Shown here piece after piece: positions 7,720-22,950 of a DNA stretch of 60,311 bases (positions are counted from its first letter, which is position 1; the number at the start of each line of letters is the position of its first letter). The translations under genes were made by a program, and so were the position numbers. The stretch lies in assembly GCA_014803765.1 (NCBI GenBank), contig JAAVBC010000027.1:1-60311 (forward strand), given 5' to 3'. The notes beneath the pieces were generated by a model, which worked only from the letters and a program-made list of their open reading frames with translations, ran no database searches and had not been told where the DNA came from. Origin of the DNA: Bacteroides sp. (lineage in GTDB: Bacteria; Bacteroidota; Bacteroidia; Bacteroidales; Muribaculaceae).

Positions 7720-7749
7720 CAAATTTACTAATAATTTCGAATCCGCAAA
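7720..7749 (-). promoter_or_regulatory. Promoter of korAB
   Basis: On the minus strand TAAATTTG (7727-7720) is a perfect -7 box, with TTTG (7749-7746) 18 bp upstream as the -33 box. The -33 element lies inside the palindrome at 7739-7776. Confidence 0.65.
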
Positions 7750-7776
7750 TAAATATTTCAATTTATTTGCGGATTC
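7739..7776. promoter_or_regulatory. Perfect 16-bp inverted repeat overlapping the kor promoter
   Basis: GAATCCGCAAATAAAT (7739-7754) is repeated inverted at 7761-7776 around ATTTCA. It may end transcription of the nuclease operon or act as an operator for korAB, because one arm contains the -33 box. The minus-strand side lacks a clean T-run. Confidence 0.7.
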
Positions 7777-7835
7777 CTATTATCTTATTTCAATCTTGTT
7801 CAACCCGGACTCTTCCCTGAGTGTCCGATTCCAAT

Positions 7836-9593
7836 TTATTTCACCATCATTTTGCTGACCTTTCCGCCGGAGCAAACCTTGATGTAGATGCCTGCCGGAA
7901 GAGCCAAGCCTTCGGAGTTATTGACCGGTCTGCCATCGAGAGTAAAGATTTTCTCTTCTGCATTTTCAGGCAATATCGGGCGTTCCACTCCGGATGTTAT
8001 TCCCCCTGCATATTTGTAGAGACTCACTTTCTGCTGATTGGAGGTATAGACAGAATAACGCGGCTGAGAGGCATTATACTGAAGAGTGCCGATCTGTTCA
8101 CCGAAATTGATTGAAGCCGTTGAATCGGAATTGATGCTAATCGCCGCCGCTCTTCCGTCGGCAGACAGAGAGAGTTTTTTAGCTTCATTTGTGAGCAGAT
8201 AGCCCTGAGGTCGCATCATCAGGTCATTGACCGCAACGTAATAGAGTCCGCCGCCGTCACTTACAAACTGAATGATTCCTGCGCCATCAGGCAGCCCGGT
8301 AATTACCCCCGCTTCGGGAACTACACTTCCGGAAGCCGTCAGATAACCGGAGGAGGAACTTGAGCGTGCTTCACACCCCATCACGTCAAAGGCTTTTATC
8401 GAGCAGACTATATATAAATCAGATTCATTGATTTCGCTGTCGTCCTCAACGAGTTGCCATTTCGTATTCTTATAATCGGTTGTGGAAGCATCTATGGCAG
8501 TCAGAGTCAATGTTGCGACGGGGCTGCGCAATGCAGCGCCGGTCTTGCTCTGTGCGTAAGCCTTGAGAGTGACAATTTCACCCATAGCCGAAGCTCCGGA
8601 AATCTCAATATTCCCTTCAAGCAGCTGATAATCCTCTGAATCTGTCAGTGTGTAATAGATATCGACATCGGGAGTCGGGCATGAGAGCGCAATATCTGTC
8701 GCTTCCCACCATCTGCCTGTCCATGTATTGAGCGCCGCAAGGTCGTATCCTACAGGCACGGGAGCCTCCGGACGATCGGCAATCGGAGTCATGGCATCTG
8801 CGAGCTTGAAGGGTTGATTCTTCTTGCTGCCCCATATATATTCCGCCAGACCCGGAATTGAAACAAACGGATTTTCGTTGCGCTGCACCTTTGAAACAGC
8901 CACATTGCGCTCGCTTTCGCGGGTATCTACAGGATCCTGCCGCGCCCAATCCAGAAGCATTTCGTAAGCCCAGGGCTGAAGCGTGGGATATGTAGATAAT
9001 TCATACATGCAAGCCGGAGCCGCCTCCCATGTAATATCATCATAGATTGTAAACACATAGAAATATGCTCGCGCGAAATCCCCCTTGAATTGCTCTGCAG
9101 GTTCAAACACACTCTTGGAACCTCCTCCGATGCCGGCTACGGGTGCGCCGATTTTAGTCACGCCATTGCTCCAATTGGGATTCCCGGCGACAATCCCGAG
9201 AGGATTATCATTCTTGCGATTATTCGCATCCGCATCCGAAGGATTCAGATGATGGAGATCTTTATATGCAGCATTCTTAGTGCCTCCCCACCAGGAATTG
9301 GCAACCGCGTGTTCGATATTCATGCCTGAATGACCGGTGGAAACATAGACAAGGCGATTACTATACATATCAAACCAAGCCTCCTGACCTTCTACTATCC
9401 TGACATCACAAGTCGAGAATGCATCCCAGGTCTTATCGCCGTAGCTAATCTCTGTGTGCGTTTTAGCAATTTCCTTGACAGCTGCCTTCAATGCCGCTCC
9501 CGATTTGCCTTCAAGAGAGGAATAGTCTGCGGCGTATGCCACGGAACCCAACATTTGTGCGAGCACTATCGCACCGGCAATTTTCTTAATCAT
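7836..9593 (-). CDS. Secreted endonuclease I family nuclease (paralogue 1)
   Basis: A 585-residue exported nuclease with a signal peptide (about residues 1-21). The endonuclease I (EndA/Vvn, PF04231-type) catalytic region covers about 45-260, with the catalytic pair Glu94-His95 in MNIEHAVANSWWGG and the metal-binding HLNPSDADANNRK segment. After it come a chitobiase-like C-terminal beta domain (about 270-375), a second beta domain ending in a YNASQPRYSVYTSN motif, and a type IX secretion-like tail with LDGRP and LPAGIYIK. The start overlaps the previous gene's stop as ATGA, so the two are translationally coupled. Family members cut DNA and RNA without sequence preference. It is last in the deoC-led operon. 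Confidence 0.9.
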   Translation of the reverse strand: MIKKIAGAIVLAQMLGSVAYAADYSSLEGKSGAALKAAVKEIAKTHTEISYGDKTWDAFSTCDVRIVEGQEAWFDMYSNRLVYVSTGHSGMNIEHAVANSWWGGTKNAAYKDLHHLNPSDADANNRKNDNPLGIVAGNPNWSNGVTKIGAPVAGIGGGSKSVFEPAEQFKGDFARAYFYVFTIYDDITWEAAPACMYELSTYPTLQPWAYEMLLDWARQDPVDTRESERNVAVSKVQRNENPFVSIPGLAEYIWGSKKNQPFKLADAMTPIADRPEAPVPVGYDLAALNTWTGRWWEATDIALSCPTPDVDIYYTLTDSEDYQLLEGNIEISGASAMGEIVTLKAYAQSKTGAALRSPVATLTLTAIDASTTDYKNTKWQLVEDDSEINESDLYIVCSIKAFDVMGCEARSSSSSGYLTASGSVVPEAGVITGLPDGAGIIQFVSDGGGLYYVAVNDLMMRPQGYLLTNEAKKLSLSADGRAAAISINSDSTASINFGEQIGTLQYNASQPRYSVYTSNQQKVSLYKYAGGITSGVERPILPENAEEKIFTLDGRPVNNSEGLALPAGIYIKVCSGGKVSKMMVK

Positions 9594-11116
9594 TTCACCA
9601 AAATTTTAGAGGTTGAGCCATTACGCTTCACTACGATATATACACCCTCAGAAAGGGATTCCAGATCCTCCCCTGCGCTCACGCCCTGAAGTGTATAGAT
9701 TCCGAGGATTCCATCCTCCTCCGCGTCTATAATATCGGTTACGGAAGTCTCGATCTGTTCGTTGTAGCGATAAAGGAAGGGCTTCTCTTGTCCGTTGGAT
9801 GTATAGGTTGTGAATCGCGGTGATGAGGGATTGTAATAAAGCTTACCATTGCTTCCGAAGTCAAATACAGCTCCCTCCGAGGATACGCTGAGGCTGAAAA
9901 GACTTGCTTCCCCTTCGCTTGCGACTGTATTCACATTCTTCGCTGCCGTACAGTTGAAGTAACCGATTAACTTTCCATCCATATCGCTGACAGAAGCCAC
10001 ATAATTCGAGCCTGACGGAATAAACTTCAGAACTGCGCATGAGCTGTTGGGACGCGAAATAGAAGAAGTGCCGTTATTTTCAATTACAGGCATATTTCCT
10101 GTCGGGGTAAAATATTTTGCGTAGGCTGTGCTTCCTCCATCGAGACCCATTGCTACGCCTGCGCTCTTGGCGACAAGAATATATTTATCATCCGCGTTGA
10201 TATCCGCCATCGAATTTACGATTACCCATGAGTTTGCAGGTTCGGGATCAACGCCGGGTTCGGGATCAATGCCCGGATCGGGATCTACACCCGGACCCGG
10301 ATACTCGTAATCTCCGGTGAAGGAATACGGCTGACCTTTTTTGCTGCCCCACACATATTCTGCAAGTTCAGGAGAATCAATATAGGGGTTTCTATTGTGC
10401 TGAATCTTATAGATAGCTTCGTTTCTGTCGATCTCTTTCTGACTGACAGGATCCTGACGATGCCATTTCAAAAGGAGCTCCACAGCCCAGGGCTTGAACA
10501 TGTCCTCACTTCCGACTTCATACATCCAGTTCGTATTTTCCTTCCAGGAGATTGTCTCATAGACAGTGAACATATACATGAATACTCGGGCGAAATCACC
10601 CTTATACTCATCAGCAGGCTCGTAGACATACTTATTTCCGCCTCCCTGTCCGCTGACCGGATTGCCGACAAATGTCACCCCGTTATCCCAGGTGACATTA
10701 CTTATCTCACCCAACGGATAATTGCTCTTGCGACTATTGGCATTAGAGTTGGATGGATTAAGATGAAAGAGATCTTTATACGCATCATTCTTAGATCCTC
10801 CCCACCATGAATTGGCAACGGAATGCTCGATATTCATTCCGGGATGTCCGCTTGAAACCGCTACATTATCCGGGGAATACATATCCCACCATGTCTCTTT
10901 TCCGCCTACGATTCTTACATCCGTAGACTTAAAGGCAGCCCATGTATTATCACCGTAACTTACGGCAGTATGGCTTGAAACTCTCTTGGCGGCAGCCTGA
11001 CGCAGCGCTTTGCCGGTCAGACCTTCAAGTGAATTATAATAGCCATCGGGCACAGCTCCCTGCATGAGGGACGCACCCATCGAAAGCATTAAAAGATTTA
11101 ATATTGTACGCTTCAT
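9590..11116 (-). CDS. Secreted endonuclease I family nuclease (paralogue 2)
   Basis: A 508-residue exported nuclease with a signal peptide (about 1-20) and an endonuclease I domain (about 45-265) containing Glu97-His98 in MNIEHSVANSWWGG. A short Pro-Gly-Asp linker follows, built of repeated PG[VI]DP[DE] units (about residues 274-292). A C-terminal beta domain follows, carrying YNPSSPRFTTYTSN, which closely resembles that of paralogue 1, and the protein ends with a sorting-like tail (LYTLQGVSAG-type turn, EGVYIVVK). It lacks the chitobiase-like domain of paralogue 1. The linker and the shared tail suggest extracellular or surface delivery by type IX secretion, although no such machinery lies in the window. 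Confidence 0.9.
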   Translation of the reverse strand: MKRTILNLLMLSMGASLMQGAVPDGYYNSLEGLTGKALRQAAAKRVSSHTAVSYGDNTWAAFKSTDVRIVGGKETWWDMYSPDNVAVSSGHPGMNIEHSVANSWWGGSKNDAYKDLFHLNPSNSNANSRKSNYPLGEISNVTWDNGVTFVGNPVSGQGGGNKYVYEPADEYKGDFARVFMYMFTVYETISWKENTNWMYEVGSEDMFKPWAVELLLKWHRQDPVSQKEIDRNEAIYKIQHNRNPYIDSPELAEYVWGSKKGQPYSFTGDYEYPGPGVDPDPGIDPEPGVDPEPANSWVIVNSMADINADDKYILVAKSAGVAMGLDGGSTAYAKYFTPTGNMPVIENNGTSSISRPNSSCAVLKFIPSGSNYVASVSDMDGKLIGYFNCTAAKNVNTVASEGEASLFSLSVSSEGAVFDFGSNGKLYYNPSSPRFTTYTSNGQEKPFLYRYNEQIETSVTDIIDAEEDGILGIYTLQGVSAGEDLESLSEGVYIVVKRNGSTSKILVK

Positions 11117-11214
11117 ATTTTAAAGTTTTTCTGTTAGGTAAGTAATGACAGGAGTCTTTATCTTCCTCTCTTCTAACTTACGATAGATTCTATAGATTAT
11201 TTACGTAAATGGAT

Positions 11215-12924
11215 TCAATTCATCAGTTTCACAGGAGTTCCGAGCTCGGGAGCCACAATCACATATACACCCGCAGGCAGCTCTATGAAATCTCCATGCT
11301 TTGCGTTATTGATTTCGCGGATAAGTTTTCCGGTTGTATCGAATACTCGTATCTCTCCAACTGAGGGGAGCTCTGTCAGAACTACAAAGCCTCCTTCCAC
11401 TCTGCCGATCTCCACCTGTGGGGTACCGTTGAGATTATCCACTGCACTCGCCTCCACAAGAACAGAATTTGACATCGGCGACAAGAATCCAAGACGTGAT
11501 GAGACCACACGATAACTCTCTGCCACGTCGGGATTACGATCTGTTATCTTCAGAGAATTTGAAGATGCCTGAAGCTGATCGGTCTCTTCCCCATCCTCAT
11601 TATAGCGCGTACGGTAAAGGATATAATAATCCACAACTTCAGGAGCTTCCTCCCAGCATGCGGTATAAGAAGTCGGAGTGACATCGACAGGGGGCAATGC
11701 CTGTAATTTCGAAAGAGTGGGAGCTTTACACCCCTCACCCTTCAGATTGACACGCACGCTTGACGCCAATCCTCCGTCGTAGAGAGAGAGTGATGCCGTA
11801 TGTTCCCCCTCAGAGGTCGGAGTATAAAGAATCGGGAGCATATATTCTCCGGTAGAATTGATTGAGGAGCCGGAGATGCTTGATTCCGCCGCTTCAAACA
11901 TCTTTCTGTCCGTTCCGCCGATGACGAGACTGATAGGAGACGTGAAGTTTTTGCCTTTGAGAACAAGCCAAGCCGATTGAGTCTGTCCGACGGCGACCTG
12001 GCCGAAATCGAGGGTTTCCCCATTGACGGGGAGTGTCAGTTCGGGGTCTCCGGTGATTGGAGGATTCTCGTTCGAGCCCTGCTCGCTGACATAAAATATT
12101 TCATTTGTACGCTTACCCCAGATAAATTCAGCAAGTTCGGGGAAATCCACAAAGGGGTTTCTATTGCCCTGCGCTTTCTCCACTGCATCATTACGCAGAA
12201 TTTCCTTTTGGCTGACCGGATCTTCCCTGCTCCATTCAAGCAGCATTTCGTATGCCCATTGCCCGAGTGTGGGATAGGAATTGCGGGAGAACATCCAGTT
12301 ATACTGAGGTTGCCAATAAATATCATCATAGACAGTCGCCATGTAGAAGAATCCGCGGGCGAAATCCCCTTTATACTCATCCGCAGGTTCAAACACCTTT
12401 CCGGCGCCTCCACCATAACCGAATTTCGGAGTGCCGACGCGCGTACACCCGTTATCATAATCGGGAGTTCCGGATATTATACCGAGAGGATAATTGCTCT
12501 TTGCCATATTTGCGTCTCCATCGGAAGGATAGAGATTCCACATATCGGAATAAGCGGGAGTATATTCCACATCATTATTCCATTTCCACCAGGATTTGGG
12601 GACACTGTGTTCGCGATTCATTCCGTTGGAGGAGAAGGAGCTCTTGGCGCTCTGATTACTCCTGATCAGAAGCACCTTATTAGAATACATCTCCCACCAT
12701 CGTATCGAACCATTATATTTTTCAGGATAGACATCCGAGTACTGCCAATAATTAGGCAGATCCATATACACAAGCTGAGTGTGTTTGCTGACACAACTTT
12801 TAGCCGCCGCCTTAAGTTGATCCTTTCTTTTCCCATTCATTGCGGAATAATATTCCTGAGAATATTCCGCGTATGCCGATGCACATGCAATCAGGGAAAG
12901 CGCTATAATGAAGAGTTTTCTCAT
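11215..12924 (-). CDS. Secreted endonuclease I family nuclease (paralogue 3)
   Basis: A 569-residue exported nuclease, the most divergent of the three. It has a signal peptide (about 1-19) and an endonuclease I domain (about 45-290) with Glu105-His106 in MNREHSVPKSWW and a WNLYPSDGDANMAKSNYPLG metal-site segment. Then come an Ig-like choice-of-anchor region (about 300-395), a fibronectin type III-like module (about 400-480) and a type IX-like tail (IREINN, LPAGVYVIV). The MNREHS variant resembles classical EndA enzymes more than the other two copies do. It is the first of the three nucleases in transcription order, 112 bp after the DUF5689 lipoprotein. Confidence 0.9.
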   Translation of the reverse strand: MRKLFIIALSLIACASAYAEYSQEYYSAMNGKRKDQLKAAAKSCVSKHTQLVYMDLPNYWQYSDVYPEKYNGSIRWWEMYSNKVLLIRSNQSAKSSFSSNGMNREHSVPKSWWKWNNDVEYTPAYSDMWNLYPSDGDANMAKSNYPLGIISGTPDYDNGCTRVGTPKFGYGGGAGKVFEPADEYKGDFARGFFYMATVYDDIYWQPQYNWMFSRNSYPTLGQWAYEMLLEWSREDPVSQKEILRNDAVEKAQGNRNPFVDFPELAEFIWGKRTNEIFYVSEQGSNENPPITGDPELTLPVNGETLDFGQVAVGQTQSAWLVLKGKNFTSPISLVIGGTDRKMFEAAESSISGSSINSTGEYMLPILYTPTSEGEHTASLSLYDGGLASSVRVNLKGEGCKAPTLSKLQALPPVDVTPTSYTACWEEAPEVVDYYILYRTRYNEDGEETDQLQASSNSLKITDRNPDVAESYRVVSSRLGFLSPMSNSVLVEASAVDNLNGTPQVEIGRVEGGFVVLTELPSVGEIRVFDTTGKLIREINNAKHGDFIELPAGVYVIVAPELGTPVKLMN

Positions 12925-13036
12925 TTTGAGGATAGTTATTCGTTACGCCGGGAAGTCCTGGCAGCCCTTGGTCTTAGGTTATAAACTCGCCCCGCCCGGA
13001 GAGATATCCGCGCGGGGCGAAGTTATCAGGAGTTGT

Positions 13037-14731
13037 TTAATCTATTATTTTTATCTCCGAAATAGCAGAGATACCGAATGTGCCGAGGACGCCTGAAGCG
13101 ACATTGCATCGTATCAGCACTTTCTTGCCGTAAAGCTCAGGATGCTGCAGCAGATCCATCTGATCGCGGAATGTGCTTCCGGTCAGATTGACGGGAATTG
13201 CGTTTTCGACTGTATTCGTATCTTTGGTATCGCCAAGTATAAAGTTATTGCCGCCGAAGTTCTTATCGACGAAGTCATTGCTGAAGTTAGCACCCTTTTC
13301 ATAGGTTCTGCCCTCGACGAAGCCTACGATATATCCTTCCACCCAGGCATCGGAAAGTGCTTCGCCAACCTTAACGATATAGCTCGGCTTGAAGGGGTCG
13401 GATTCCGAACCTGTGCCCAGACCATCCAGACCACCGACATTAATACCTTCTATAGTAAATACTGATAAGCCGTCGGCTATGCCGGTGATGCCATGCATTC
13501 CGAGATATTCCGTAAGATTACCCACCACGTTGAGTTTATGACCCAATACTTCCGGGTTATCAAGAAGGTTGGCATAGCGGCGTATCTTGGTATTGGCAGG
13601 GAGATCTACCACCATCATCTCCTCAATATTCCGACAATCCTGTGTCGGAGCGATGACAAGGTTATTGTCAAGGTCAGTGGCATCAGCAGTGAAGTTAATG
13701 TCGCTGAGTGAAGTGACAGTGCCTACACCGGAAGCCACGCTACCGATAATGTAACCCTCAACCCAGGCGTTGCGACCTGAATTATCGAGAGCGATCGCCT
13801 CCTCAACAGTGAATGGATCGTTGCGCATACCCTTCGTCGAGAAGTCTACGTCCTCGATTCCGCGCAGCATGAGCTGCCAGTCCGAACCATAGCGGGAAAG
13901 GATACCGCGAATTGTGCCGATACCATCCGGCAGTGGGTCGTTCCAGAATGAGCTATAGCCCGAGCAACGCACATTGAGACGCTGACCGGAAGTATCGCAG
14001 ATATAGCGGTCTTCAGTATTCTGGTATGTCGCGAAAGTGACAGCAGGAGTCTGACCTGCATCTTCGAAGCTTACGTTGGGAATTTCCACGAGCTGACTCA
14101 TAATCTGAAAATATTCTTCCGAGTCGGCTACGATACTGTTAAGATCCTGAAGACTTATGCGTGTTATATACGCATTATCGGCAGGAGTAGGATCGCCGAA
14201 GTTAATAGTCTTGAAATCCTGATTGGGCAGACCATTCTTCTCTGTATGATTATTGAAGATATCGTATGCCATGAAAGTGATCTGAGGCGTGCCGTTGTAT
14301 TGACCCAGCCAACCCATCTGAAGAAGACTATTGTATTGACCCATCCAGAGATCAGTGGCGTTGATGACTACCTCCTGACCCAGACGATAATCCACATACA
14401 TCGAACTCTGATTGATTGAGAAGGCGAGCGCACCCGTCTCATCCTGAATCACGAGTGATTTATAGATATTACCTGAGGCATCACTTGAAATGACACGTCC
14501 CTTAAGGATATAAGGAGTCTCTGTTTCTCCATCCTTATAAGGAGTCAGAACTGCCACTTCATCGCCAAATTCTGCCTTGAATTCAGCTAATGTTGTGTTA
14601 GGAATCAGAGTTGCCTGAGGCACCTCCAAAGCCGGCTCATCAAAAGAATCCTGACAGCCTGTCAGCGCGCCCGAGATTGCCGCTGCTCCAAGCATCATGC
14701 CGACCGGATATATATATTTCCTGAAATTCAT
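13037..14731 (-). CDS. DUF5689/DUF6359-type surface lipoprotein
   Basis: A 564-residue lipoprotein with lipobox LTGC (Cys26), followed by an acidic stretch (QDSFDEP) of the kind that exports Bacteroidetes lipoproteins to the outer surface. DUF5689 covers about residues 38-270, with OB-fold-like KGRVISSDASGNIYKSLVIQD. Two DUF6359-like modules follow (about 300-410 and 430-560), each opening with DPFxVxEAI/KPSYIVKVGEAL and AWVEGYI[IV]G. These families commonly neighbour secreted nucleases and TonB receptors. A role as a nucleic-acid or nucleotide binding partner of the receptor is inferred; no biochemical function is visible in the sequence. Confidence 0.85.
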   Translation of the reverse strand: MNFRKYIYPVGMMLGAAAISGALTGCQDSFDEPALEVPQATLIPNTTLAEFKAEFGDEVAVLTPYKDGETETPYILKGRVISSDASGNIYKSLVIQDETGALAFSINQSSMYVDYRLGQEVVINATDLWMGQYNSLLQMGWLGQYNGTPQITFMAYDIFNNHTEKNGLPNQDFKTINFGDPTPADNAYITRISLQDLNSIVADSEEYFQIMSQLVEIPNVSFEDAGQTPAVTFATYQNTEDRYICDTSGQRLNVRCSGYSSFWNDPLPDGIGTIRGILSRYGSDWQLMLRGIEDVDFSTKGMRNDPFTVEEAIALDNSGRNAWVEGYIIGSVASGVGTVTSLSDINFTADATDLDNNLVIAPTQDCRNIEEMMVVDLPANTKIRRYANLLDNPEVLGHKLNVVGNLTEYLGMHGITGIADGLSVFTIEGINVGGLDGLGTGSESDPFKPSYIVKVGEALSDAWVEGYIVGFVEGRTYEKGANFSNDFVDKNFGGNNFILGDTKDTNTVENAIPVNLTGSTFRDQMDLLQHPELYGKKVLIRCNVASGVLGTFGISAISEIKIID

Positions 14732-14784
14732 TTCTTTGGAATTTAATATTATTTGTTAATAGGCTTAAGCTCTCTGCCCTGAAT

Positions 14785-16353
14785 TTACTCTTCTACGAGC
14801 TCGAAGAGCACAGCGCAATTATTTGACACATAATTTCCGCTATTCGGAGCTACATTCATAAAGCTCGGATTGAACTCCAGATGATAGCCGCGCAGATAGC
14901 TTACCATTATGTATTTTCCGGCTGATTCAGTAATCTTCCATGAAGTCTGGAGATCACTGTAGCTTCCCTGCCAGCCGAACTGGAATGTGCTGTGGGTAGC
15001 ATCGTCATCCATATAGATCAGACGCCCTTCAGAGTCGCGAATCTGCCAGTAATCTTCTTCTACATTTGTGAATGTGAAGGCATCCTCGACGCTCACACGG
15101 AACTCTGTCTCCTGCTCATTCGTGAATTCGATTTCTTCGACATTGAGTCTGCCATAACCGGAGCCGGATGTAGCGGGGATCGCGACATATTCATTATCAA
15201 ACAGCATTGCATATTTCTTGCCTGACTCAAGTTTATCAGCCTTGCGGTAGGTGCCGATTGATGAGGGATCGACTGTGATCCACTCGTCGGGATTCGCACC
15301 GCCGAAGTTAAAGTCTGTCATGTAGAAATCGGAAGAGTTGCCGCTACCGCCTCTTTCAGCCTTATAGCGGAATGCGATATAAATCTTGCCTGAGAATTCG
15401 GAGAGATCGATATCTCCTGAAGAGAGCCATACGCCGTCAGTGGAGCTGACAGGACATTCCAGATGCACGGGTTCGCAGCTGAGCGGATTCTTATGGGTCA
15501 GGACGAACACATCGAATGAAGTGTCTGCCACTTTTCTATAGACCTCAGTGCGGAAGCTGACAATTTTTTCTTCCACGTTATCAAGATTGAGCGCCGGAGA
15601 TACAAGCCAGTTGATGTACGGACCTCCCGTTGCTGTGCCGTAGTAAGCCGACATTCCGACATAGCACATTCTGTTATTCTCAGTTACAGTGAACCCGGTC
15701 ATTCCGCCCTTTTCCATAAACTGGCTCCAGCCTCTTTCCTCATAATATGTGAAATCATGACTTGCGCTGAAGTTGCAGAAATACTGACCCTCGATAGGAG
15801 TGATGGGTTCTTCATATTTACCCTTCGCGCCCCAGTTATATTCATAGGCTGAGCGCAAGCCGTAGGCACCCATATATTTGGAGCCGGTCGTGCCGCGCAG
15901 GCTGACCTGTCGGTTGAAGTTATCCGGATGATCGGAAAGATTGACCACCGAGCGGCAGACACCCGAAGGGAGCTGCACGGGGATACAATCATCAATCGTA
16001 TATCCCAGCTTATCCCACTCGTCTTCATCATAAGGATATTGAGCGAGAATCACATTATTATTTTTGATCGCCTTTGTCTCTCCATCGGCGATTACAGCCG
16101 AAGCCATCGTGTTGTTGATATCGCTGTTGACGTAGCCGACGATATAACCCGTCACCCAGTTGGTCGTTCTGCCGTCGGGGGTAGTGCCGAGATGAGCCTG
16201 CCAGGTCTGCATCGGATCGCTCCATACACCCGTGCCGATTTCGGGATAGGGCTGCTGTGAGGGTGCCTGGGCGAAGTCCTCATTACATGATGTCAGTCCG
16301 ACTGCGCCCGTCAGGGCTGCGACTGCTATCAGTGATTTTATTATTATGTTCAT
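14785..16353 (-). CDS. DUF6359/choice-of-anchor type surface lipoprotein
   Basis: A 522-residue lipoprotein with lipobox LTSC (Cys23) followed by acidic NED. The first part (about 40-165) is a DUF6359-like module with NWVTGYIVGYVNS. The middle (about 185-350) resembles a choice-of-anchor J jelly-roll domain. The C-terminal part (about 360-520) is a beta-trefoil-like segment with repeated WxI and a YHLEFNPSFMNVAPNS motif, echoing the tail domain of the nucleases at 7836 and 9590. It lies 48 bp after the TonB receptor gene, so it could take the place SusD holds in sugar loci. That partner role is inference. Confidence 0.8.
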   Translation of the reverse strand: MNIIIKSLIAVAALTGAVGLTSCNEDFAQAPSQQPYPEIGTGVWSDPMQTWQAHLGTTPDGRTTNWVTGYIVGYVNSDINNTMASAVIADGETKAIKNNNVILAQYPYDEDEWDKLGYTIDDCIPVQLPSGVCRSVVNLSDHPDNFNRQVSLRGTTGSKYMGAYGLRSAYEYNWGAKGKYEEPITPIEGQYFCNFSASHDFTYYEERGWSQFMEKGGMTGFTVTENNRMCYVGMSAYYGTATGGPYINWLVSPALNLDNVEEKIVSFRTEVYRKVADTSFDVFVLTHKNPLSCEPVHLECPVSSTDGVWLSSGDIDLSEFSGKIYIAFRYKAERGGSGNSSDFYMTDFNFGGANPDEWITVDPSSIGTYRKADKLESGKKYAMLFDNEYVAIPATSGSGYGRLNVEEIEFTNEQETEFRVSVEDAFTFTNVEEDYWQIRDSEGRLIYMDDDATHSTFQFGWQGSYSDLQTSWKITESAGKYIMVSYLRGYHLEFNPSFMNVAPNSGNYVSNNCAVLFELVEE

Positions 16354-16401
16354 CTTTTCTTACTATTTGTTTCTGTAATTTTCAAATCTGACTTTCTCTA
16401 C

Positions 16402-19209
16402 TCAGAAGCGGATACCGAAGTTGAAGAAAACTCGGATGCCCTGCGCATAATAATAGCGGTTGGGGAACTTGTTGAGATTATAGTTGGTGTAGTCAAGTTT
16501 GGACTCCTGGAAACCACCTGTCTGGATATTGCGGTTGTTCAGGAGATTGTTGATGCTGAGGTTGAAATTCAACGCGCCGAACTTGGTATAGATGAGCTTG
16601 CCGATTGAGAGATTCATTACAAATGAGTCCTTCTGCTTATCCTGAGCGGCAAATTCCGCCAGACGCTCGCGATATTCCTCTTCTGATGTACAGAATTTCC
16701 ACAGTCCGGGCAACTCCTCATGGCGTGTGGGAGCGAGATCAACGTAGCCGTCGCAGAAATAGTTGGCGTTAACTTCAAAGAACCAGTTCTTGGGTGCGGC
16801 ATAATTCAGAGCCAGACCGTATGCCTGTTGGGGTGTGCCGCCGATATAATAGTTCTTAAGATATGTCACACGCTCTACATCCTCCATCGCGCCGTTCTGA
16901 GCAGAACGTACGCCTGTCGGGTTATTCTTGTAGTTATAGCGTGAGAATGCGCCCGTAGCACGAACGCTGAGTCCGGAGAGAATCTTATATTCCAGACCTA
17001 CTTCCACACCCTTATGTTCAGACTGTATGCCTGCCAGAGTGTAGGTCATCATTGTAGCCAGGTCATAGTCATAGAAGAAGCGCTGCGACATGCCGTCCCA
17101 GAGTTCTGTCCAGAATCCTGTCACCGAACCGCGGAAACGATTGTAGTTCCAGGTATAAGAGAGGTCGGCGGCAAGATATGTTTCTGATTTGAGATTACGC
17201 ACTGCTTCATCCTTGATTCTTGCATTGACGTATGCATTCTGAATCATGGGAGCGCGTGAGCCGTAGCCGATATGACCGACGATATAGTTACGTCCGTTGA
17301 TTTTATATGTGGCGCCTGCCTTGATACCGCCGTTGAGGAAGTTATGGCTTTTCCCCTTGCCGAGCGACTGATCGGGGAATCGACCATTCTGCATGTGACC
17401 CTCACGAACGAAATTGGTGTTGCTGATTTCAGCAGCGTAGTTCACATTCCAGTGAGTTGTGTTCCATTCATTCTGGAGCCATGCTCTTGCCTTAACGGCG
17501 TGCATGTTGTAGTTATATCCATAGATGTCCCCTTCGTAGACTTTGCGGTTGGGGTAGCGGATATCATTCTGGAGTTTATCCTGATCGCCGGCGAAATCGC
17601 GTTCTGAGAAGTTGTCGACATCACGCCAGAACTCGCCGCCGAGAAGATCTTTCACTGTCTCATAATAATGAGCGTTCGTATAGTTCACACTCACACCACC
17701 CTGAAGTGTAAGAATATCGCTCAGGCGATGATTGAGATAGGAATTGAGCATCCAGACTGTCTGGTCGGTGTGTTCATCCTTAAGGATATAGGAAGACTGA
17801 CCTTTCAGCTCGCTGTCGCGGTCGAAATATTCGCGGTTGAGGAGATTCGCCTGATAGATTCCATCCCAGTCGATCTGGCGCACGCTTTCATTGTTTTTCC
17901 ACTGATTATAGATATAATCGTATTGAGTCTGCTGAGCGAGATAAAGCTGGGATTCCTGCGAAAGGGGATCTGAAGGATCAAACACTGCGTCAGGAAGGAA
18001 GTAGGAGGGAAGATTACGATAATAGTTCGGACGGGGGTCAGCAGCCTGATACCAGTCGAACGAAGAGCGGGCATAAGCATTATGACGGAATGCAATCGCC
18101 GTGTTGAGGGTTGTGCCCATGCGCGGATTCCAGAGCCAGTTGAGCATTACGGAGGGGTCGAATGTCTTGTAAACTCTGTCGGATCTCTTCTTGCCGTTGA
18201 AATAGCCCCATGACGGATTGTAGAGATTGGAGCCTGCCAGGTCATAAGCCTCCTGAGTCGCGGCATTATTGCCCGCACGCATTGTCGGCGCACCCCATGT
18301 TGTCAGGTTAAGGCTATGGGCATCGTTGATGACTTTCTGAATCGCGAGCTGATAACCGAATGAATTATACCATGTGCCTTTCACTACACCTTCAGGAGCG
18401 TATCTTCCGATCACACTTCCTGAGAATGCCCAACCGTGTTTGTTCAGACCTGTGGAATACTGCAGCATCGCACGCAGCATATAGTTTGAATTGGTGTAGC
18501 TGACATTGCCGCGGAAGCCGGGTGCATACTGAGATGCATAAGTCGTGAAGTTCTGCGAGCCGCCGATGGAGCCGAAGCCATAGGCTGAAGATGCCAACCC
18601 GATTTCAGTGCTCTTATTGCGGAATGCGCTGGAAGTCATACCGCCCAGACCGGAGAAATTGAATGAGCCGCGCATGAGGTCGTTGTATTCCACGCCATTG
18701 ATATAGCCGTTCTGCCAGTTGGAATCCAGACCGCGCATACGATAACGCACTGTGCTGTATTGATAGGAGGCTGCCTGATAGAAAATATCATCAGTAGCGC
18801 CCTGAATTGTGCCGATGCTCTGCATTGCGCTTTCATCGTCTGCAATCTGCTCCTCATCAAATATGAATGAATCGGAGTTCATTGTCTGACCATCGTAGCC
18901 GGAGACCTCCATTTTCAGAGTCCCGAGATTCTTCACCATGTCGCGGATTATATCGACATCGAGGTAGAGATCATCGTAGCCATAGGCTATGACATGAAGT
19001 TCATCGCTTCCGGATTGCGCGTTGGTAATCTGGAAATTGCCATAAGTATCAGACGTCACCATAATCGCCTGATTGCTCAACAGGATATTGGCATCTTCAA
19101 TCGGCTTGCCTGACTGCGCGTCGACCAGAGTGCCTTTCAGTCCTGTCGGTGCCGCTGACGCCATCGCTGCAGTTGCGGCAAAGAGAATGAAAGATAATAT
19201 TTTTCGCAT
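16402..19209 (-). CDS. TonB-dependent outer-membrane receptor
   Basis: A 935-residue outer-membrane transporter. It has a signal peptide (about 1-19), a carboxypeptidase-like regulatory domain (about 22-100, GLKGTLVDAQSGKPIEDANI), a plug (about 110-230) and a beta-barrel ending in GIRVFFNFGIRF with a terminal Phe, the outer-membrane insertion signal. No SusD homologue is adjacent, so it is not a standard SusCD pair. It sits between the secreted endonuclease/exonuclease/phosphatase (22-bp gap) and the DUF6359 lipoprotein (48-bp gap). The context suggests import of DNA-derived oligonucleotides, nucleotides or phosphate. The cargo cannot be read from the sequence. Confidence 0.92.
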   Translation of the reverse strand: MRKILSFILFAATAAMASAAPTGLKGTLVDAQSGKPIEDANILLSNQAIMVTSDTYGNFQITNAQSGSDELHVIAYGYDDLYLDVDIIRDMVKNLGTLKMEVSGYDGQTMNSDSFIFDEEQIADDESAMQSIGTIQGATDDIFYQAASYQYSTVRYRMRGLDSNWQNGYINGVEYNDLMRGSFNFSGLGGMTSSAFRNKSTEIGLASSAYGFGSIGGSQNFTTYASQYAPGFRGNVSYTNSNYMLRAMLQYSTGLNKHGWAFSGSVIGRYAPEGVVKGTWYNSFGYQLAIQKVINDAHSLNLTTWGAPTMRAGNNAATQEAYDLAGSNLYNPSWGYFNGKKRSDRVYKTFDPSVMLNWLWNPRMGTTLNTAIAFRHNAYARSSFDWYQAADPRPNYYRNLPSYFLPDAVFDPSDPLSQESQLYLAQQTQYDYIYNQWKNNESVRQIDWDGIYQANLLNREYFDRDSELKGQSSYILKDEHTDQTVWMLNSYLNHRLSDILTLQGGVSVNYTNAHYYETVKDLLGGEFWRDVDNFSERDFAGDQDKLQNDIRYPNRKVYEGDIYGYNYNMHAVKARAWLQNEWNTTHWNVNYAAEISNTNFVREGHMQNGRFPDQSLGKGKSHNFLNGGIKAGATYKINGRNYIVGHIGYGSRAPMIQNAYVNARIKDEAVRNLKSETYLAADLSYTWNYNRFRGSVTGFWTELWDGMSQRFFYDYDLATMMTYTLAGIQSEHKGVEVGLEYKILSGLSVRATGAFSRYNYKNNPTGVRSAQNGAMEDVERVTYLKNYYIGGTPQQAYGLALNYAAPKNWFFEVNANYFCDGYVDLAPTRHEELPGLWKFCTSEEEYRERLAEFAAQDKQKDSFVMNLSIGKLIYTKFGALNFNLSINNLLNNRNIQTGGFQESKLDYTNYNLNKFPNRYYYAQGIRVFFNFGIRF

Positions 19210-19231
19210 GATGTTATTGTGTTTTCATGAA

Positions 19232-20311
19232 TTATTTTACCTCCTTCACCAGGAAGATCTCTGTCGGGAAATGGTCGGAATATCCGTTTGTCCACGCTCC
19301 GCCTGAGAATGTGCGGTGAGGATAGCCGCGATATTGACCATCCTGCTGCTTGAGGAATTCCTTATTCAGCACCTGCGCGCTGCGGAATTCGAGCCCTCCG
19401 GCGCCGACAAGCAGATTATGGTTGATGATTATCTGATCAAAGAGGTCCCATTGTCCTCTGTAGATGTAAGATCCGATACCCTCGTCGAGTTTTTTCCAGA
19501 AAGGATTGTAGAATCCTCCGGGCTGACAATCGGCGGGATTCTTCACAGCGCCCAATGTCTGTGCGCAGGATTTATCCGAGGGATCGTCGTTAAGGTCGCC
19601 CATTACGATGATTCCCATCTTGGGATCAACCTGTAGGAGGGAGTCGGCGATGGAACGCGAAAGAGCCGCCGCAGCTTCACGCAGATAGCTGCTCTGCTGG
19701 GAGCCGCCGCGTCGTGAGGGCCAGTGATTCACGATGACGGCCACTCGCGAACCTCCGAGCAAACCGACAACACACATCTGGTCGCGGGTCTTGAACCAGG
19801 GCATATCGGGAATGACGAGTGTATGATTCGTCACATTGATCGGACGGAAGAAGCGGGGATTGTAGAGCAAGCTGACATCCACGCCGCGACGATCCGGACT
19901 GTCGTGATGAATCACCTGAAGATTCCAATCCTTGATGGCATCCTGCTTTACGAGATCCTGCAGCACCGTGATATTTTCAATCTCACTACATCCGATCACT
20001 GCCGGACCCATCGGAGTCGTCGGAGTTGTCATCTGCGAAATGGCATACGAGAGATTACGCAGTTTCGAACGATATTTATGACCGTCCCAATTATTCTTTC
20101 CCTGAGGAGAGAATTCGAGGTCATACTTACCATTATTGTTGATAGTGTCAAAGAGGTTCTCCAGATTATAGAACGCTACTCCAAACATCTGCATGCGCTT
20201 CTTTCCCGGCTCATCTTTAGGAGAAGCCGTAGCGGACATGAAGCAAGAGGCAACCCCTCCGGCTATTATCACAGCCGGAAGAAGAAGCCTCAGAATTCCT
20301 TTTCGTTTCAT
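19232..20311 (-). CDS. Secreted endonuclease/exonuclease/phosphatase family protein
   Basis: A 359-residue metal-dependent phosphodiesterase or nuclease of the DNase I-like fold. An N-terminal hydrophobic segment ends in VASC (Cys23), a possible lipobox, so it is probably a lipoprotein. Catalytic landmarks are in order: YNLENLFD, CSEIEN (metal-binding Glu), HHDSPDRRGVDV, NHWPSRRGG, MGDLNDDP (Asp/Asn) and YSDHFP (catalytic His) near the C-terminus. Bacteroidales proteins of this type occur repeatedly with TonB receptors and DUF5689 proteins. Substrate could be DNA, oligonucleotides, or phosphodiesters such as lipids; its neighbours favour nucleic acid. It starts 39 bp after deoC and 22 bp before the receptor. 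Confidence 0.88.
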   Translation of the reverse strand: MKRKGILRLLLPAVIIAGGVASCFMSATASPKDEPGKKRMQMFGVAFYNLENLFDTINNNGKYDLEFSPQGKNNWDGHKYRSKLRNLSYAISQMTTPTTPMGPAVIGCSEIENITVLQDLVKQDAIKDWNLQVIHHDSPDRRGVDVSLLYNPRFFRPINVTNHTLVIPDMPWFKTRDQMCVVGLLGGSRVAVIVNHWPSRRGGSQQSSYLREAAAALSRSIADSLLQVDPKMGIIVMGDLNDDPSDKSCAQTLGAVKNPADCQPGGFYNPFWKKLDEGIGSYIYRGQWDLFDQIIINHNLLVGAGGLEFRSAQVLNKEFLKQQDGQYRGYPHRTFSGGAWTNGYSDHFPTEIFLVKEVK

Positions 20312-20350
20312 AATTTAGGGTTAGTCAGAATATAGTCAGGGGATGAGAAA

Positions 20351-21229
20351 TCAGAAGTATTTTGTCTCTTCGCCGAGAATGCTTGAAAGCAGGCTGTTGG
20401 CAAGAGAGGAAGCTCCGATACGGAAAAGATCGGTAGTGAGCCATTCATCGCCGAGAATCTCTTTTACCAGTGTGTAGTATTTCACTGCATCTTCTGAAGT
20501 GCGGATACCTCCGGAAGCCTTGAAACCTACCTTTCTGCCGGTCTGCTGATAATATTCCTTGATGCACTGACACATCACGTAGGCTGCCTCAAGCGAAGCG
20601 CCGGGATAGATTTTACCGGTAGATGTCTTCAGGAAGTCTGCTTCCGAGTAAAGGGAGAGGATTGAGGCTTTCTTGATATTTTCAGCCGACTTCAATGCGC
20701 CGGTCTCGAGAATAACCTTAAGACGCGCATCTTTTGCCGTGTGCTTGAGTTCGATGATTTCATCGCTGAGGTCTTCATAATTGCCGTCAAGGAATTGTCC
20801 GACATTAAACACTATGTCCACCTCGTTAGCCCCTCCGGCACATGCCAGAGCAACATCGGCAACCTTCACAGCCTGAAATGTCTGGCTGGAGGGGAAGCAA
20901 CCGGCTACAACAGCTATGTCCACTCCCGGCACATCCAGGTGAGTCTTCACTACTTCCGCAAAATTGGAGTAAACGCAGATCGCCGCTACATTCTTCAGTT
21001 GCGGATAATCATTGTCGAAATCATTAACACGCTGTGTGAAACGAGCTACGCTTGACACTGAATCTTCTGTAGAAAGAGTCGTAAGGTCGATCGAACTCAG
21101 AAGGAAACGATAGACATCCTCGTTCGCGTTCTCTGATGCCTTTTCTACAATTTTAGCTACAGCTGCCGCAACTGCTGCGTCATCGCTGATGACCTGACTG
21201 CGGCTGATTACTTCCTGATATTTATCCAT
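20351..21229 (-). CDS. deoC: Deoxyribose-phosphate aldolase
   Basis: Cleaves 2-deoxyribose-5-phosphate to glyceraldehyde-3-phosphate and acetaldehyde, the last step of deoxynucleoside breakdown. It has 292 residues with the class I aldolase barrel. The Schiff-base lysine is Lys201 in FLKTSTGK, the proton-relay lysine is Lys237 in GFKASGGIRT, and Asp138 lies in NEVDIVF. It is cytoplasmic, with no signal peptide. It is the first gene downstream of a strong promoter and is followed after only 39 bp by seven genes for secreted nucleases, lipoproteins and a receptor, which gives this otherwise housekeeping enzyme a clear place in a DNA-degradation route. Confidence 0.97.
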   Translation of the reverse strand: MDKYQEVISRSQVISDDAAVAAAVAKIVEKASENANEDVYRFLLSSIDLTTLSTEDSVSSVARFTQRVNDFDNDYPQLKNVAAICVYSNFAEVVKTHLDVPGVDIAVVAGCFPSSQTFQAVKVADVALACAGGANEVDIVFNVGQFLDGNYEDLSDEIIELKHTAKDARLKVILETGALKSAENIKKASILSLYSEADFLKTSTGKIYPGASLEAAYVMCQCIKEYYQQTGRKVGFKASGGIRTSEDAVKYYTLVKEILGDEWLTTDLFRIGASSLANSLLSSILGEETKYF

Positions 21230-21255
21230 GGGTTTAGAATTTATTTCTGACTCTT

Positions 21256-21272
21256 ACATCATGCTATGATGT
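21256..21272. promoter_or_regulatory. Operator-like palindrome upstream of deoC
   Basis: ACATCAT-GCT-ATGATGT has perfect 7-bp arms. It lies between the -7 box (21283-21290) and the deoC start at 21229, the place where a repressor site or a 5' UTR stem would act. Confidence 0.55.
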
Positions 21273-21282
21273 GTCTAATTTG

Positions 21283-21313
21283 CAAATTTATCTCAGTTTT
21301 TGGAAATAATCAA
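21283..21313 (-). promoter_or_regulatory. Promoter of the deoC-led operon
   Basis: On the minus strand TAAATTTG (21290-21283) is a perfect -7 box and TTG (21313-21311) lies 20 bp upstream as the -33 element. A transcript from here could cover eight genes down to about 7836. Confidence 0.65.
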
Positions 21314-21413
21314 TTTTTTTACGCTAAAAATGATTAATCAATTCCCCAATCAGGCATACATTTATGTTATCTAAGCAAGATTTATTATTTTTGCAATATA
21401 AAAGAATTGAATT

Positions 21414-22800: not shown

Positions 22801-22848
22801 AAAAAAAATCGCGATTTTGGGCTTTTTTAGCCTGAAATCGCGATTTTT
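22801..22848. terminator. Bidirectional terminator with AATCGCGATT arms
   Basis: Arms of 15 bp (AAAAAATCGCGATTT and its inverse) enclose GGGCTTTTTTAGCC-type loop bases. A-runs and T-runs flank both sides. It probably ends the glycosidase transcript coming from 22951 on the minus strand. Confidence 0.85.
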
Positions 22849-22950
22849 TCATCTATTTTCCCCTGATTTGGGAATTTTATCGTTGACTTTTCTCAGTTCT
22901 CACATCTCAGGAATTGCAAATCTTCATTTGCAATTATTGAGTAGAGAATC

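Follow-up and report, generated by a model that had tools for sequence, protein, structure and literature searches.

The eight minus-strand open reading frames between positions 21229 and 7836 of contig JAAVBC010000027.1, a 60,311-nucleotide stretch from a Muribaculaceae genome that is analysed here as a whole (the window), form a run with deoC as its first gene. The functional core of this run is wider than deoC and consists of an endonuclease/exonuclease/phosphatase (EEP) protein, a diverged TonB-dependent receptor and a DUF5689 lipoprotein, which recur together throughout the phylum. The operon probably cuts DNA outside the cell and pulls DNA through the outer membrane. On balance, we favour the explanation that it imports DNA across the outer membrane, in this organism chiefly for scavenging, and that deoC was captured as its leader gene. 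The window genome (G000) is a metagenome assembly that is 58% complete and 1.5 Mb in size, and the named relatives closest to it are metagenome assemblies labelled Porphyromonadaceae, Bacteroidales or Muribaculaceae. The features of the run are as follows:

21283..21314, minus strand: Bacteroidota-type promoter with the -7 element TAAATTTG (21290-21283), the -33 element ATTG and a spacer of 20
20351..21229, minus strand: deoC, deoxyribose-phosphate aldolase, first gene of the run (TIGR00126, 144 bits, cut-off 117)
19232..20311, minus strand: EEP nuclease/phosphatase with an N-terminal signal sequence, core gene 1 (PF19580, 360 bits)
16402..19209, minus strand: diverged TonB-dependent receptor with an N-terminal CarboxypepD_reg domain, core gene 2 (domain match and profile alignment)
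14785..16353, minus strand: lipoprotein with DUF6359 and a choice-of-anchor J domain; LTSC followed by acidic residues
13037..14731, minus strand: surface-type lipoprotein with DUF5689 and two DUF6359 repeats, core gene 3 (PF18942, 174 bits)
11215..12924, minus strand: secreted-type endonuclease I, copy 1 (PF04231; match to the type IX secretion system (T9SS) sorting domain below cut-off)
9590..11116, minus strand: secreted-type endonuclease I, copy 2 (PF04231; T9SS sorting-domain match below cut-off)
7836..9593, minus strand: secreted-type endonuclease I, copy 3 (PF04231; no sorting-domain match listed)
7739..7776, no strand assigned: 16-bp hairpin after the last gene, a possible transcript end, without a T-run on the operon strand

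The genes are separated by 39, 22, 48, 53, 112 and 98 bp, and the last two overlap by 4 bp. An earlier note on this DNA had given the order and gaps of the eight same-strand genes exactly, and its identification of deoC, the EEP protein, the receptor, the two lipoproteins and the three endonuclease I enzymes is upheld by family profiles, with PF04231 scores of 138-161 bits across the three endonuclease I copies. In Pfam, the receptor matches only CarboxypepD_reg, with neither a Plug nor a barrel match. In profile-to-profile comparison it aligns over nearly its full length with plug-type receptors (probability 100%); the idea of a ‘plugless’ receptor was rejected because this comparison spans the plug region.

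The three core genes are homologous across the phylum. Their neighbourhoods were compared in the best 80 named loci, loci of the same genus, 8 order-level loci and 20 chosen phylum loci, counting as ‘with room’ those with enough flanking sequence to score a neighbour. Where there is room, a DUF5689/DUF6359 gene directly follows the receptor gene in 79/79 named, 21/21 genus, 7/8 order and 19/20 phylum loci, and an EEP gene lies within 3.5 kb of it in 44/59, 19/19, 6/7 and 17/20, respectively. The phylum-wide search with the receptor gave matches at E 1e-20 in 133/395 genomes; more distant receptors are included in this number. A lipobox is present in 100/115 DUF5689 proteins, and at least two acidic residues follow the cysteine in 93 of these 100, which is the pattern of surface lipoproteins. 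The EEP proteins have hydrophobic N-termini, with a lipobox in 9/70.

Some relatives of the core genes occur in other settings. The distant paralogues L062-L070, which are about 21-26% identical to the window receptor, are not counted as the module, and both of those scanned, L065 and L066, are Plug-type. In L064-L070 this second receptor is found in genus genomes both with and without the module, and a large protein of 665-935 aa with no family assigned follows it in 7/7. Several Muribaculaceae-type loci (L082, L088, L097-L101 and others) carry two tandem DUF5689 lipoproteins behind the receptor. The PF18942 (DUF5689) search also matches the Bacillus subtilis control genome; the protein concerned is possibly the wall-bound nuclease YhcR.

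In the mechanism that we propose, the whole run would be one operon with a widespread outer-membrane nucleic-acid import module as its working core. The DUF5689 surface lipoprotein would bind DNA, and perhaps also RNA, outside the cell; the TonB-dependent receptor would carry what is bound across the outer membrane, and the EEP enzyme would cut it in the periplasm. In the clade where deoC is linked to the module, up to three secreted endonuclease I enzymes would have been added, cutting DNA outside first. deoC itself would be a resident gene that the module settled beside; lying behind the promoter, it would head the transcript, and the module would have no need of it. With its proteins in the cell compartments that these roles imply, the module would thus have DNA as its cargo in the window organism, and the imported DNA would be put to nutritional use.

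The earlier note took the run for a locus that degrades extracellular DNA, imports the products and feeds deoxyribose into glycolysis, and it saw the link to deoC as the key. That link extends well beyond the window genome. The deoC-EEP-receptor arrangement is found in 28 further distinct loci, and since it recurs so widely the order is not due to chance. The receptor tree unites all 29 deoC-linked rows in a single group (SH-aLRT 99). The junction between deoC and the EEP gene is kept in all 29, while RuvC lies on the same stretch in only 17/28 (locus L032 starts at deoC). A comparison of gene order around the module, of the kind that the earlier note had proposed, places deoC next to the EEP gene in 21/23 assessable module-bearing genus genomes, the exceptions being G018 and G028; G020 was left out of the count, as a contig end cuts the locus. 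Thus the link between deoC and the module is real and clade-wide, and it probably has a single origin. The deoC motifs EVDIV, KTSTG and GFK..GG, which we take to be catalytic, are invariant across 10 aligned orthologues.

The motif TANNTTTG, which we take to be the -7 promoter motif of Bacteroidota, has a single minus-strand occurrence over the run (21290-21283), and ATTG lies 20 bases upstream of it; the next minus-strand occurrence, at 7727, lies ahead of porA, the gene following the run. The single promoter element noticed before the eight genes keeps its placement in related loci, 32 of which were surveyed (28 distinct after 4 duplicate records were dropped). The motif lies upstream of deoC in 26/28 distinct loci (30/32 overall; 3.4 expected by chance over 32) and in the deoC-EEP gap in 0/28 (0/32 overall; 0.95 expected by chance over 32). 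With the motif so placed, deoC probably heads one transcript with the rest of the run. Close upstream of the receptor, the motif is found in 1/12 loci of the deoC clade (0.6 expected) vs. 38/68 others (10.6 expected), and it precedes deoC in 2/6 deoC genes away from the module. From these counts, the module of the deoC clade seems to rely on the promoter before deoC, and the difference between linked and unlinked deoC genes suggests that the promoter goes with the joint operon. Scans for sigma-70 promoters and terminators gave no surplus over shuffles, and the sigma-70 scan of the window was uninformative (27 found vs. 24.5 expected). Downstream of the last gene, the fold of 7725-7800 has a z of -7.3.

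The promoter counts and the constancy of the deoC-EEP junction would also suit a DNA-catabolic locus with deoC as a working part, in which DNA is cut and imported and its deoxyribose passes into glycolysis. We nevertheless consider this unlikely, given how deoC is distributed. Of the best 80 named loci, 12 have deoC within 4 kb of the receptor and 68 show no such link, which is also seen in 0/8 order and 0/20 chosen phylum loci. Among 26 genus genomes, deoC is present as one copy in 23, as two copies on two contigs in G010, and not at all in G022 and G028, the latter having the module without a deoC match. Conversely, 5/6 tested genus genomes without the module retain deoC, where its neighbour is RuvC (L200, L201 and L204) or porA (L202 and L203). 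In the deoC tree, L201 and L202/L203 fall among module-bearing rows, and the placement of L200 and L204 is not resolved. From this placement, the module was probably lost in L201, L202 and L203 while deoC stayed, although one gene tree cannot exclude transfer. In L202 and L203, porA/porB come after deoC at distances of 183 and 311 bp, and the upstream side differs.

The deo operon of nucleoside catabolism offers a comparison for the catabolic role. The run shares deoC with it but contains no further deo gene, namely neither an adjoining deoB nor a nucleoside phosphorylase, no genome-wide search for the latter having been made. deoB, the canonical phosphopentomutase, whose product deoC would use, scored above cut-off in 0/21 genomes, with 3 weak partial matches. 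Taken together, deoC is a conserved leader of the run for which the evidence of a metabolic role is weak. The overall proposal of the earlier note therefore stands in part: the promoter placement, the recurrence and the tie of endonuclease I to the module (see below) hold, whereas deoC as the functional key is not supported, being linked in one clade only, kept by most of the module-less genus genomes tested and without a deoB above cut-off.

A likeness that the earlier note missed concerns the receptor and the DUF5689 lipoprotein. In Riemerella anatipestifer, RA0C_RS04915, a CarboxypepD_reg outer-membrane protein, adjoins RA0C_RS04920, a DUF5689 and DUF5017 protein, and markerless deletion of either brings transformation, otherwise at 5.4e-5, under the detection limit of about 4e-10 (PMC8459023). 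The screen described there yielded genes unlike the known competence machinery, and the receptor type of RA0C_RS04915 was reported in Flavobacteriaceae only. A tonBA mutant is reported to show less transformation with iron uptake unaffected (PMC8383284).

In the window, we likewise find a CarboxypepD_reg receptor without a Pfam Plug match and a DUF5689 lipoprotein nearby, with the DUF6359 lipoprotein sitting between the two; the make-up and order of the Riemerella pair are also present in the genomes of family f30. The window run differs in adding the EEP gene, the second lipoprotein, the endonuclease I enzymes and deoC. All DUF5689 matches adjoin this receptor in 7/7 f30 genomes searched. Against the NCBIfam model named after a Riemerella gene, one f30 lipoprotein scores 749 bits and two others score 395 and 375 (cut-off 475); because of the first of these scores, f30 was taken for the Riemerella/Chryseobacterium family. 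Receptor identity is 44-96% within f30 and 32-36.5% between f30 and f31. The table printed in the Riemerella report gives 32-35.7% for the receptor against six genera and 59.6% against Flavobacterium (PMC8459023), and the f30/f31 values fit most of it. The window receptor is 29-30% identical to those of f30, and for DUF5689 the values are 27-28%. We infer orthology between the window pair and the transformation pair of Riemerella.

Owing to this shared make-up, and by analogy with the Riemerella pair, DNA import is a more specific reading of the run than an analogue of a polysaccharide utilisation locus (PUL), the nucleic-acid counterpart of which the earlier note had seen here. In the run, as in a PUL (SusC/SusD), one operon joins a TonB-dependent receptor to surface lipoproteins and secreted hydrolases, but the run contains no SusD-like lipoprotein, no match to the SusC/RagA receptor model, no glycoside hydrolase and no sensor gene. 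More tentatively, the EEP protein, the receptor and the DUF5689 lipoprotein could constitute a general Bacteroidota importer of polymeric nucleic acid at the outer membrane, TonB-driven and with its own periplasmic entry nuclease, which would be older for feeding and would serve transformation in some lineages. DNA itself would be the cargo of such a TonB-dependent receptor.

Endonuclease I is present in 24/24 module-bearing vs. 3/13 module-less genus genomes, for which Fisher's test gives p 8e-7, a value that overstates independence, as the genomes are related. At completeness of at least 85%, the counts are 14/14 and 1/9. The tie between endonuclease I and the surface module is thus supported, and it extends to G017, G018 and G028, where the enzyme is distant from the module. 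Beyond the genus, L111, L131 and L193 have endonuclease I close to the module, and in the L193 genome this is the sole endonuclease I. Each of the window copies has EHSV or EHAV, and the Asn motif of copy 1 was aligned to 1oup; we assume that these motifs have their functional roles here. In these features the copies resemble the endonuclease I family (Vvn, EndA), but they are about twice as long, with extra C-terminal parts. Two of them match the T9SS sorting domain TIGR04183 at 19.1 and 17.6 bits, below the cut-off of 23, with no match listed for copy 3; the T9SS protein SprA is present in 21/21 genomes.

As the secreted enzymes would cut DNA outside the cell first, the operon appears suited to feeding rather than to gene uptake. 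This bears on a further explanation, that natural transformation here, as in Riemerella, uses the module for its outer-membrane step and the EEP protein as a periplasmic entry nuclease, which would supply ComEC with single strands. The domain make-up shared with the Riemerella pair speaks for it, as does the EEP gene beside the pair phylum-wide: the Riemerella report leaves its entry nuclease unnamed, and in its main text ‘exonuclease’ is used 0 times and the passages with ‘nuclease’ or ‘phosphatase’, at 12 of 13 places, describe no EEP neighbour (PMC8459023). Secreted endonuclease I enzymes that track the module, however, would destroy long DNA, and ComEC does not track it (19/24 with vs. 10/13 without, p 1.0, 37 genus genomes). 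Two good module-bearing genomes, G011 and G038, gave no ComEC match. Short helix-hairpin-helix (HhH) DNA-binding proteins of the Riemerella type were also looked for. All 3/3 f30 genomes carry frames of 424-475 aa with repeated HhH, whereas no short multi-HhH frame was seen in the 37 genus genomes, where the HHH_3 matches, found in 23/37, fall without exception in long frames (546-1279 aa). Transformation as the function here is therefore doubtful in our view, about as much so as the catabolic role of deoC; the explanations weighed overlap, and our confidences in them need not sum to one. G038 (locus L053) is 99% complete and carries the module with no ComEC match, a hint that transformation is not required for the module to work.

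Several points weigh against an importer of DNA used for scavenging. ComEC (G000:C19) and DprA (G000:C17) are both present in the window genome, which is compatible with transformation, and the absence of short HhH frames is weak, since 14/37 genus genomes gave no HHH_3 match even to long frames and G000 is 58% complete. No EEP gene lies near the receptor in 15/59 named and 3/20 phylum loci with room. Profile searches of the PDB gave nothing significant for DUF5689 or DUF6359 and showed only the N-terminal domain of the receptor; the search with the EEP protein gave no match at E 0.1. Of five EEP motif patterns that we made, four fit 59-70/70 proteins and one fits 4/70, and EEP enzymes can act on phosphoesters other than DNA. 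The likeness to Riemerella was judged from domain make-up and from the f30 genomes; the Flavobacterium identity of 59.6% exceeds every f30-f31 value, a mismatch if f31 holds Flavobacterium; and with so low an identity between the window and f30, the cargo may have changed. That the module serves lipopolysaccharide (LPS) or another surface phosphoester, with only an indirect effect on Riemerella transformation, is improbable: an EEP protein plus a receptor are by themselves no proof of DNA cargo, and the NCBIfam name of the DUF5689 lipoprotein family comes from M949_1556, cited as LPS-associated in PMC6142336, but the module co-occurs with endonuclease I, a family of nucleases, and has it close by in further lineages, and 9/30 DUF5689 domains weakly match the OB-fold nucleic-acid-binding family PF01336 (best E 0.0007) vs. 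0/27 DUF6359 domains.

Genes of the kind that the Riemerella screen found are connected by this analysis with a conserved module that has a nuclease as partner, and with a feeding-type operon of gut bacteria; the EEP protein is a candidate for the Riemerella-type entry nuclease. Whether DNA is taken up for food or for genes becomes a question of gene deletion inside one phylum.

Outside the run, an inverted repeat of 20 pairs followed by a T-rich stretch lies at 22803-22849, between tRNA-Thr and a glycoside-hydrolase-like gene, and is a terminator candidate.

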